64,000 nt of DNA from Shinella zoogloeoides (GTDB taxonomy: Bacteria; Pseudomonadota; Alphaproteobacteria; Rhizobiales; Rhizobiaceae). Positions 22,949-61,589 of this stretch are shown here, in pieces. Location of the stretch: the NCBI RefSeq assembly GCF_003574625.1, contig NZ_QNUJ01000005.1, positions 310,001 to 374,000 on the forward strand, in the 5' to 3' direction. The notes beneath the pieces are model-generated. The model saw only the letters and a program-made list of their open reading frames with translations. It made no database searches and was not told where the DNA came from. A program made the translations under genes and the position numbers. Each line of letters begins with the position of its first letter. The first letter of the stretch is position 1.

Positions 22949-23722
22949 TCAGGCGAGGACGCAGCGGATCAGCCCGCGCAGCGAATTGCCGACGAGGATG
23001 GTGCCGCCGGCAAGGTCCTCCGGCCGCAGCACCGCCTCGACGGCGCTGCCGGTTTCCAGCAGCTCCTCGCGCAGAACGCCGGCGAGCAAGCCCGAGGCGA
23101 GCGGCGGGGTCTTCAGCGGACCGGTGCCGTCGTCGAGGAACAGCGAGGTGATGGTGCCCTCGCAGAGTTCGCCGCGCTCGTTGAGGAGGATGACTTCGTC
23201 GGCCTCGGTCGTGGGGAATTCGGCGCGTGCCGCGGCGTAGAGGGCGCGGCGGGATGTCTTGTGGCGCAGCAGCGGATCGGCGGAGGAGAGGCGGGTGGCG
23301 GCGAGCTTCACGCGCCAGACCGCATCCGCCGTAAGGGGTGTGAAGGCTGCGGTCTGCACGTCGATCCGGCCATCGGGGAAGAGTTCGAGGCGGATACGGA
23401 GGGGTTGCGGTTGCGGCGCAGCCCCCTCTGCCCTGCCGGGCATCTCCCCCACAGGGGGGGAGATTGGATGGGGGGATGCCTTGCCCATTTCAGTGGCCGC
23501 GGTTGAGAGATGACCTTGCCTCTTGCCAATCTCCCCCCTTGTGGGGGAGATGCCCGGCAGGGCAGAGGGGGGTAGCACAGCGAACAGGGCGTCCCGTGCC
23601 TTCTCCGCCCCCGGCAAGCCAAGCGCCTCCGCCGATCGCGCCAGCCGCCCAAGATGCCGCTCCAGCCTGACGAAGCCGGTTTCCGGTTCCCAGCGCAGGG
23701 TCTCGATCAACGAGATATCCAT
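22949..23722 (-). CDS. pabC: aminodeoxychorismate lyase-like class IV aminotransferase with inserted palindromic element
   Basis: This PLP fold type IV enzyme is expected to split 4-amino-4-deoxychorismate to p-aminobenzoate and pyruvate for folate. The 257-aa product starts MDISLIETLRWEPETGFVRLERHL and ends with the typical EVILLNERGELCEGTITSLF and TPPLASGLLAGVLREELLE blocks. The PLP lysine is in LRHKTSRRALY. Between DALFAVLPP and PQPLRIRLEL lie about 50 residues (roughly 51-104) encoded entirely by a palindromic DNA element that keeps the frame open; ordinary homologues of about 210 aa lack it. ATG at 23722 has GGGGGA upstream and overlaps the end of pabB by 16 bases, implying coupled translation. 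Confidence 0.85.
   Translation of the reverse strand: MDISLIETLRWEPETGFVRLERHLGRLARSAEALGLPGAEKARDALFAVLPPSALPGISPTRGEIGKRQGHLSTAATEMGKASPHPISPPVGEMPGRAEGAAPQPQPLRIRLELFPDGRIDVQTAAFTPLTADAVWRVKLAATRLSSADPLLRHKTSRRALYAAARAEFPTTEADEVILLNERGELCEGTITSLFLDDGTGPLKTPPLASGLLAGVLREELLETGSAVEAVLRPEDLAGGTILVGNSLRGLIRCVLA
23422..23572. repeat. composite palindromic element inside pabC
   Basis: Two arms of 46 bp (23422-23467 and 23526-23571) are inverted copies differing at one base, separated by 58 nt. Each arm also contains its own palindrome of the ATCTCCCC/GGGGAGAT kind and the block TGCCCTGCCGGGCAT. The structure is that of dispersed REP/BIME-type elements, different in sequence from the three intergenic elements at 46, 55.4 and 61.4 kb. 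It lies wholly within a reading frame, and all codons on the pabC strand are sense. Confidence 0.9.
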
Positions 23723-24864
23723 TGGTCCCCCACGGCGAAGCGCGCCTTCAGCAGGCATTCCTCATATTCCGCCTCTGCGGTGGAATCGAAGACGATGCCG
23801 CCGCCGACATTGAAGACGGCGTTGCCGTCCTCGAAGAGCGAGATGGTGCGGATGGCGACGTTGAAGCGCATGGTGCCGTCGGGGGCGATCATGCCGATGG
23901 CGCCGCAATAGGCGTCGCGTGGGCCGTCCTCCAGGTCGTGCAGGATTTCCATGGCGCGCATCTTCGGCGCGCCGGTGATGGAGCCGCAGGGGAAGAGGGC
24001 GGCGAAGATATCGCGGATGGAGATGCCCGGGGTCAGCTTCGCCCGGACGTGGCTCACCATCTGGTGCACGGTCGGGTAGGTCTCGACCGCGAAGAGTTTC
24101 GGGACGTGCAGCGTGCCGACCTCGGTGATGCGCGAGACGTCGTTGCGCAGCAGGTCGACGATCATGCGGTTTTCCGCCTGCGACTTTGGATCGGCCTGCA
24201 TGGCGGCGATAATGCGCTCGTCCTCGTCCGCGCTGCTCCCACGCGGCGCGGTGCCCTTCATCGGATGCGTCTCGATCCAGCCCTCCTTATCGATATCGAA
24301 GAAGAGTTCCGGCGAGCGCGAAAGCAGTTTCGGACCGTCCAGCGAGACGAAGGCGCCGTAGCGCACGGGCTGGCGTTCGATCAGCGACCAGAAGGCGGCG
24401 AGCGGGTCGCCGTTCCAGCGGGCGCGGATCGGCATGGTGAGGTTGGCCTGGTAGCAGTCGCCCTGCCGGAGGTGCTGGTGCAGGCGATCGAAGCGGCCGC
24501 GGTAGGTCTCGAAATCCCAGTCGGCTTTCGGCTCGGTAAGGAAGGGCTCGTTTTCGACACGTTGGCGCGGTGTTGCGAGCGGGTGATCGTCCGCCGGCTT
24601 TTCGAAGATGCCGAAGCTCATCAGCGGGGTCGGGCGGTTCTCCTCGGCGAGTGGAGCCAGCTTCTTCTCGAAGAGATGGCCGGCCTCGTAGCTCATGAAG
24701 CCGGCGATCCAGTGGCCCTTTTCGTGGGCGGCCTGAAGGGCCGCGAAGGCGGGCTCGAAGCCGGCGCGCTCGCGCATGGTGACGACCGCGAGCGGATCGG
24801 CGAAAACCACCGTCCGGTCCTCACGGTCGTCCCTGAGGAGCACAAAGCGTTCGCGGTCGGTCAT
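23707..24864 (-). CDS. pabB: aminodeoxychorismate synthase component I
   Basis: This 385-aa chorismate-utilising enzyme converts chorismate and ammonia (from a PabA-type glutaminase located elsewhere) to 4-amino-4-deoxychorismate for folate. The C-terminal chorismate-binding domain (about 115-375) contains CYQANLTMPI, SRSPELFF, THPMKGTAPRG, ENRMIVDLLRND, the metal/chorismate loop PCGSITGAPKMRAMEI and GGGIVFDSTAEAEYEE. The short N-terminal part is the reduced form seen in stand-alone rhizobial PabB. It lies 18 nt downstream of pepF and overlaps pabC, so pepF-pabB-pabC form an operon. Confidence 0.93.
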   Translation of the reverse strand: MTDRERFVLLRDDREDRTVVFADPLAVVTMRERAGFEPAFAALQAAHEKGHWIAGFMSYEAGHLFEKKLAPLAEENRPTPLMSFGIFEKPADDHPLATPRQRVENEPFLTEPKADWDFETYRGRFDRLHQHLRQGDCYQANLTMPIRARWNGDPLAAFWSLIERQPVRYGAFVSLDGPKLLSRSPELFFDIDKEGWIETHPMKGTAPRGSSADEDERIIAAMQADPKSQAENRMIVDLLRNDVSRITEVGTLHVPKLFAVETYPTVHQMVSHVRAKLTPGISIRDIFAALFPCGSITGAPKMRAMEILHDLEDGPRDAYCGAIGMIAPDGTMRFNVAIRTISLFEDGNAVFNVGGGIVFDSTAEAEYEECLLKARFAVGDQWISR

Positions 24865-45954: not shown

Positions 45955-45978
45955 AACCCGGCTTCGGCCGGGTTTTTT
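45955..45978 (+). terminator. Rho-independent terminator of rpmE
   Basis: AACCCGGC and GCCGGGTT form an 8-bp stem with a TTCG loop, followed by TTTT. Confidence 0.9.
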
Positions 45979-45999
45979 GTTGCCTGCTGTTTGCAGATT

Positions 46000-46152
46000 G
46001 CCCCTCATCCCCCTGCCGGGACCTTCTCCCCGCAAGCGGGGAGAAGGGTGTGTTACACCGTTTTCCCCAAGCCTCGGAATGCAGGAAAACGGCGCTCCCA
46101 GCGCTCCTTGCCCCGCTTGCGGGGAGAGGATGCCGGCAGGCAGGTGAGGGGC
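46000..46152. repeat. RIME-like palindromic element, copy 1
   Basis: This is a 153-bp element bounded by GCCCCTCA and its mirror TGAGGGGC. Internally it has CTTCTCCCCGCAAGCGGGG on the left and a CCCCGCTTGCGGGGAGA arm on the right. It is one of three such elements in the window, each placed between convergent genes (here rpmE and rcdA). The name RIME is from memory of rhizobial intergenic mosaic elements. Confidence 0.85.
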
Positions 46153-46174
46153 AGCCCACCCGAAACGCAGGCAA

Positions 46175-46198
46175 CAAAAAACCCGGCCGAAGCCGGGT
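46175..46198 (-). terminator. Rho-independent terminator of rcdA
   Basis: ACCCGGC (46181-46187) and GCCGGGT (46192-46198) pair around CGAA, with a T run on the minus strand. It uses almost the same wording as the rpmE terminator. Confidence 0.88.
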
Positions 46199-55432: not shown

Positions 55433-55562
55433 CGGCCTGCCAGCCACCTTCTCCCCGCAAGCGGGGCGAAGGGATATGCCGCGCCGGTTTCCCCAAATCT
55501 TCATCGTTGCGTTGGGCAAGTCCCCTCTCCCCGCTTGCGGGGAGAGGGTTAGGGTGAGGGGC
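55433..55562. repeat. RIME-like palindromic element, copy 2
   Basis: This is a 130-bp element with GCCCCTCA and TGAGGGGC ends, and internal CTTCTCCCCGCAAGCGGGG and CCCCGCTTGCGGGGAGA arms. It lies between 6S RNA (+) and tal (-), both converging on it. Confidence 0.85.
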
Positions 55563-61427: not shown

Positions 61428-61589
61428 GCCCCTCATCCCGCTGCCGCGACCTTCTCCCCGCAAGCGGGGCGAAGGCGGCAGACGGGAATGGCTTCCTTCC
61501 CACCCGTCGTCGAGATGGGAAGACGCCGGTACAACGAAACTCCTTCTCCCCGCTTGCGGGGAGAAGGTCGCGGCAGCGGGATGAGGGGC
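61428..61589. repeat. RIME-like palindromic element, copy 3
   Basis: This is a 162-bp element whose outer 42 bp on each side (starting GCCCCTCATCCCGCTGCCGC) are perfect inverted copies. It shares its ends and CTTCTCCCCGCAAGCGGGG core with copies 1 and 2, and sits between convergent yebC and the LLM gene. Confidence 0.9.

Follow-up and report, generated by a model that had tools for sequence, protein, structure and literature searches.

In the window, which is the whole 64,000-nucleotide stretch of Shinella zoogloeoides DNA that was analysed, the minus strand carries a pabC-like gene (22949–23722, ATG at 23722) encoding a protein of 257 residues with the aminotransferase class IV fold. The start of this gene is overlapped by pabB, also on the minus strand (23707–24864), which encodes aminodeoxychorismate synthase component I (PRK07508, 632 bits against a cut-off of 452). 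The pabC-like protein matches PF01063 with an E value of 4.9e-28, its best NCBIfam model is PRK07546, labelled 'hypothetical protein', and the aminodeoxychorismate lyase model TIGR03461 gives 28 bits against a cut-off of 177. We infer the name pabC from the sequence context, that is, from the fold and the overlapping pabB, and the gene probably serves folate synthesis. The closest solved chain is 3qqm from Mesorhizobium loti, with 41% identity, and the same entry is the best structural match of our AlphaFold2 model (E 6e-22).

The palindromic insert in the pabC-like gene

Two blocks of the protein flank a palindromic element. The N-terminal block (residues 1–50; 23573–23722, minus strand) is conserved in relatives to about residue 35, and the C-terminal block (residues 105–257; 22952–23410, minus strand) retains the HKT, CEGT and GNSLRGL motifs. 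The element itself (23422–23571, to which no strand is assigned) corresponds to about residues 51–101. An inverted-repeat search placed the arm that comes first in the gene sense at 23526–23571 and the second at 23422–23467, each 46 nt long and 98% complementary to the other, with a spacer of 58 nt between them (23468–23525). The element lies inside the open minus-strand frame 22949–23722 and contains no stop codon. Given that the Shinella alleles without a trace of it (n = 8) encode 204–216 residues, the element adds about 50 residues. Our analyses recovered what a preliminary description had read at this site, namely two 46-bp arms with one mismatch, a 58-nt spacer, some 50 stop-free residues added in frame and intact active-site blocks on both sides. 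It had also allowed for a sequencing error that shifts the frame in the repeat; however, G279, another assembly from this species, carries the same in-frame insert with 3 base differences in 159 nt, which argues against such an error.

In the AlphaFold2 model, built from an alignment of 5 sequences and with a mean pLDDT of 72.8, residues 58–103 have a pLDDT below 50 and no secondary structure, and are flanked by a helix (39–49) and a strand (108–114). A surface loop had been suggested before, and on this model the insert is indeed best seen as a floppy disordered loop. In the RNA, the minus-strand segment 23412–23581 is predicted to fold at −130.4 kcal/mol, against a mean of −77.0 and a standard deviation of 4.8 kcal/mol for 200 shuffled sequences, none of which was equally stable (z = −11.2). 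With up to 3 mismatches allowed, the window contains two copies of a 20-base tip motif, against an expectation of 0.02. Rfam returned 11 matches over the palindrome (E up to 1), every one below its gathering score; the microRNA families and two others found there were dismissed as reflecting mere likeness to a hairpin.

Copies of the element inside and outside genes

A blastn search of the own genome (G000; other G numbers denote the compared genomes) gave 70 pieces, which were merged by hand into 32 places, 17 of them holding two-arm or composite copies and 15 half or weak ones, the shortest of 24 nt. Thirty of these places are intergenic, and the two inside genes are in pabC and in a cobN gene that matches PF02514 and TIGR02257. 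The gene caller was a codon-usage script trained on the window, which by itself accounts for 29 of the intergenic placements; the remaining one, at L143, overlaps the start of a called gene, and element-free relatives place that start just downstream of the copy. The caller set the start of pabC downstream of the element too, but conservation of the frame and of the N-terminal block led us to count this copy as internal. The copy count that the preliminary description had proposed as a check thus identifies a dispersed repeat, with a second in-frame copy in cobN.

The usual element is about 155 bp long, with two long arms and the termini YACCCCCCTCTG...CAGAGGGGGGTR. Of 150 genomes searched within the order, 5 contain an exact 27-base arm motif and belong to a single family, and the other 145, all from other families, lack it; the motif counts (forward+reverse) are 15+12 in G000, 6+6 in G064, 36+35 in G108, 74+80 in G189 and 33+36 in G250. 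In a nucleotide contig search, 76 of the 80 matches listed are confined to a portion of the query containing the insert, and the records concerned are named Rhizobium, Sinorhizobium, Mesorhizobium, Agrobacterium, Brucella, Phyllobacterium and others.

Internal copies also occur in other genes of the relatives. Among 20 stretches picked by long open frames in the pabC phase, three hold such copies, in cobN of G013 (two sites), cobN of G016 (the same two) and ribD of G016. The own cobN copy (L148, 3001–3156) corresponds to the first site common to G013 and G016 (L242; L246), and in ribD (L249, 1748–2965) the element lies in frame, with the RibD_C match in two stretches. Further candidate matches fall in open frames of 1318–1507 residues in G279, G018, G010, G007 and G001. 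The genes invaded so far all make cofactors, which with so few cases may be chance. The internal copies read use the phase PSALPGISP...GEMPGRAEGG, with a shift in the first arm in Rhizobium herbae. The two remaining phases were represented by 20 stretches with long open frames, none of which holds an internal copy, although two overlap a called gene start; since the internal cases are few and the candidates were picked by open frame, we claim no phase preference.

Alleles, spacers and selection at the pabC loop

We compared 21 Shinella genomes, all of which have the pabC-like gene. Eight alleles carry the intact element (G000, G279, G013, G018, G007, G006, G003 and G010) and eight have no trace of it (G002, G004, G005, G008, G012, G014, G015 and G017); the others comprise one composite, one unrelated repeat, two remnants and one unexplained insert. 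The composite, in G001, joins 48 nt of the first arm (96% identity) to 35 nt of the far end (83%) with different sequence between. In G016 the site is occupied by an unrelated repeat with matches to 27 other compared loci, including three palindromes of the window, and the short additional stretch of G011 has no match among the compared loci. A remnant of the first arm is present in G019 and, probably, a shorter one in G009; such remnants indicate that losses of the element have occurred. On a Shinella tree computed from 3,012 alignment columns, in which several nodes are weak, these states are scattered, and none of the 10 repeat-bearing alleles has a stop or a frameshift. The alignment of relatives therefore yields element-free alleles in 8 of 21 genomes and, rather than the universal, palindrome-free insert that the preliminary description had named as contrary evidence, common traceless alleles and a dispersed palindrome. 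The inserts of G016 and G242, the latter from outside Shinella, gave no blastn match to the element at E 0.01, and a left-end trace of it in G016, suspected by eye, failed confirmation by blastn.

This distribution bears on the possibility that the mRNA hairpin regulates the pabB–pabC operon, as an attenuator, as a nuclease barrier protecting the pabB mRNA or as a brake on pabC translation. The hairpin is very stable, at about −130 kcal/mol, the insert site folds strongly in all eight intact Shinella alleles (−131.9 to −167.9 kcal/mol), and RNA roles have been reported for other REPs and MITEs in the available text of PMC2229807 and PMC3733652. A regulatory part is nevertheless unlikely, since 8 of the 21 genomes show no trace and two have remnants only, 30 of the 32 own copies lie between genes, and an unrelated palindrome, though itself hairpin-forming, can take the site (G016, G242).

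The same loop has received repeats in other genera. In a search of the family, 130 of 247 genomes returned a match at E 1e-10, most of these full-length and ungapped; in a second search 225 of 394 genomes match, some weakly and perhaps through other genes. Two-piece matches were found in 7 of the 394, and the reading covered five of these (G000, G013, G179, G242 and G208) but left out G448 and G551, as well as G425, G469 and G507, whose matches are somewhat longer (675, 648 and 645 bases). Outside Shinella, the site was read in four genomes of the first search that seemed to have a longer or broken gene, G242, G277, G208 and G179. Three genomes outside Shinella have repeats in this loop. The insert of G242 is an unrelated repeat that matches 13 other compared loci, G277 has the element with more repeat nested inside, partly a half copy of the element, and Rhizobium herbae, which came from the contig search, has the element at the same pabC site. 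Counted by eye from the start of the HL..RL block, the insert begins after 29 residues in the own protein, 31 in G277 and 33 in R. herbae, and we think that these unequal starts reflect separate insertions in one loop. The pabC-like gene of G208 is divided between the ends of two contigs (L228, L229), one of which lies in repeat sequence, matching 9 loci over about 33 nt.

G179 has a longer linker without a repeat, and its stretch, like that of G011, matches none of the compared loci. The length of the loop thus varies without repeats too, as would be expected if the own insert were a native variable loop of the enzyme and not a dispersed repeat. Such an origin is scarcely conceivable, given that the DNA of the insert recurs at 31 further genomic places, of which 30 are intergenic, that both its arms are palindromic, that element-free alleles are common in Shinella and that most family matches run full-length without a gap.

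Within the intact Shinella alleles, arms and spacers differ in their behaviour. The arms of the eight alleles are 89–98% identical over 28 pairs. The sister genomes G003 and G018 (support 96 in the tree) have spacers of 85 and 64 nt without a mutual blastn match. The own spacer and that of G013 (in a 64-nt cut) are 97% identical without gaps, and the flanking gene is 83% identical. A donor search was made for the pabC spacers among 155 distinct spacers from the fetched loci. The own and G013 spacers match one place of G003 at 76–79%, and the G018 spacer matches several places at 81–91% over 23–50 nt; for the spacers of G003, G006, G007, G010 and R. herbae, no donor beyond pabC alleles was found among the 155. 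These comparisons fit spacers that would have been replaced via the shared arms, or imported. Beside two conserved genes (L272–L313, 21 genomes), the regions hold the element, other palindromes or partial deletions, depending on the species. As far as the sequences go, the pabC site appears to behave as repeat sites between genes do, except that the reading frame acts as an extra filter.

The frame is kept in all eight intact Shinella alleles, whose spacers are 64, 85 or 88 nt long, leave a remainder of 1 on division by 3 and are stop-free. In a comparison set of 60 distinct non-coding Shinella spacers, 24 leave that remainder, and 44 of the 120 orientations are translatable. For six spacer types judged distinct, the chance is 0.37 to the sixth power, about 0.002, a value that assumes independent types and comes from a library partly gathered by peptide match. 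The simple spacer rule fails for the script-cut spacers of G277 (24 nt) and R. herbae (63 nt, with a stop in that frame), owing to the nested repeat in the former and the shift within the first arm in the latter; both reading frames are open.

We also compared dN/dS over the C-terminal block, in pairs that share genomes and are therefore non-independent. Among pairs with the intact element, the values are 0.21 (G000–G013), 0.22 (G003–G018), 0.20 (G003–G010), 0.25 (G000–G007) and 0.25 (G000–G006). Pairs without an intact element give 0.21 (G002–G004), 0.25 (G012–G015), 0.11 (G014–G015), 0.13 (G008–G019, where G019 has a remnant), 0.17 (G017–G014) and 0.24 (G017–G012). Five element-bearing pairs of distinct species thus span 0.20–0.25, and six other pairs 0.11–0.25. 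With a composite or another repeat in one partner, we obtained 0.23 (G000–G001) and 0.35 (G000–G016), and for G000–G279 the value is 0.49, on very few changes.

The last two of these values would suit an insert that damages the enzyme, so that the gene is decaying, and so would the addition of some 50 residues, along with a strong hairpin, to a protein that otherwise has about 205. We consider decay very unlikely, because the element-bearing pairs of distinct species resemble pairs without the element in dN/dS, the invariant motifs are intact, and the repeat-bearing Shinella alleles are free of stops and frameshifts. Of the two outcomes offered by the preliminary description, the impaired enzyme loses ground here, and the tolerated loop is better supported by the dN/dS values, which lie in the range of element-free alleles, by the frame kept in 8 of 8 cases and by the disorder of the modelled insert.

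Class of the element and its proposed history

The element is best read as a REP/MITE-like palindromic repeat of the Rhizobiaceae. It has terminal inverted repeats, as in a MITE; in 14 own two-arm copies, the left ends read CA in 8, TA in 4 and otherwise in 2, and the right ends TA in 7, TG in 3 and otherwise in 4. A GTAG or CGTC tag before the stem occurs in none of these 14 copies, although two read a run of G followed by TAG after the stem. The Y1 (RAYT) transposase model PF01797 has no match in G000 (27 contigs, completeness 99.97), while it matched in 5 of 14 control genomes. With respect to target duplication, no clean empty site was found beside the two conserved genes in 21 genomes, which show deletions, other repeats or unalignable sequence there.

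Several known systems resemble the present one, as far as the available text of the sources cited here describes them. The RPE of Rickettsia are palindromes of 105–146 bp that lie between genes and in frame in 19 protein genes (PMC2229807), so that the in-frame Rickettsia palindromes invoked by the preliminary description are borne out, and the RPE-bearing gmk product is active with a changed affinity (PMC2229807). By description, the likeness lies in a palindrome that is both intergenic and in frame in genes. The differences are that the host here is free-living and of another order, that 30 of 32 copies are intergenic, and that one loop takes several repeat types. The GTAG/CGTC REPs are short palindromes found between genes, and sometimes in ORFs, of many species, and the recB genes of two Xanthomonas species have different REPs at about one site (PMC3733652); their stems of 5–13 or 8–9 bp carry a tag, whereas the arms here measure 46 nt. 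Rhizobial genomes contain dozens of intergenic RIMEs, Sm-repeats and A, B and C palindromes (PMC2573895), and the present family, compared by description only, may be one of the RIME or A, B, C repeats, although these are described there as intergenic and ours is also in coding sequence. The MITEs ERIC, YPAL and Correia and the QMITE of Coxiella include copies fused in frame to ORFs (PMC2229807, PMC5896051); they share with our element the small size, the inverted repeats and the in-frame position, while a target duplication was not found here. In Nematomorpha mitochondria, long inverted repeats lie within working protein genes (PMC6649704), but both arms code for conserved protein there, whereas the arms here are added residues missing from many orthologues.

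Like other bacterial palindromes that lie in frame in genes, the element is multi-copy, resides in a conserved gene and has element-free orthologues. A literature search by titles and the start of abstracts, covering few subscription journals, found no report of palindromes in rhizobial pabC or in Shinella genes, and within this scope agrees with the preliminary description, which knew of no such case in rhizobial pabC. What seems new is a family of this kind in Rhizobiaceae coding sequence, and one enzyme loop that is used by several repeat types with turnover of the spacer.

Taken together, our analyses make it quite likely that a REP/MITE-like palindrome is tolerated in the loop of a working enzyme, with its spacer repeatedly replaced and its frame kept by selection. 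A copy would have moved into the loop that joins the second helix to the strand after it, either once in an ancestor of Shinella or several times within the genus, and the roughly 50 residues translated from it would be disordered and tolerated by the still active enzyme. The arms would then persist, and their spacer would be exchanged, probably when other copies or DNA from relatives recombine with the element. Other palindromes may nest in the element or take its place, and deletions may remove all of it but remnants of the first arm. Outcomes that fall out of frame would be purged by purifying selection on the enzyme.

A further-reaching reading, to which we give a rather small chance, takes the pabC loop for a permanent landing pad, where at least three unrelated palindrome types enter, nest and replace each other and spacers are swapped via the shared arms. 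The repeat would be suited to this because one arm phase gives a soluble, stop-free peptide from either strand, by which it could colonise genes harmlessly.

The best-known cases of palindromes in protein genes come from Rickettsia, and such palindromes can now be placed in cobalamin, riboflavin and probably folate genes of the Rhizobiaceae. The empty, filled, composite and decayed natural alleles of 21 genomes make the neutrality and the turnover of such inserts directly testable, and the same set could be used to test the effect of a −130 kcal/mol hairpin on the translating ribosome. Annotators are cautioned that a loop of variable length can be a repeat, and that an assembly may be interrupted within a gene by such repeats, as in G208.

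The window contains further palindromes. One of another type, with 48-nt arms that are 98% complementary, lies between called genes at 61428–61589 and is of the CCTTCTCCCCG type; the pabC insert of G016 matches it at 90–94% over about 50 nt. A palindrome of the CCTTCTCCCCG type with 35-nt arms is also found between called genes at 55446–55549. At 45999–46153, a palindrome with 43-nt arms sits inside two perfectly complementary 32-nt stretches (45956–45987 and 46167–46198), which have a terminator-like hairpin and runs of T or A.
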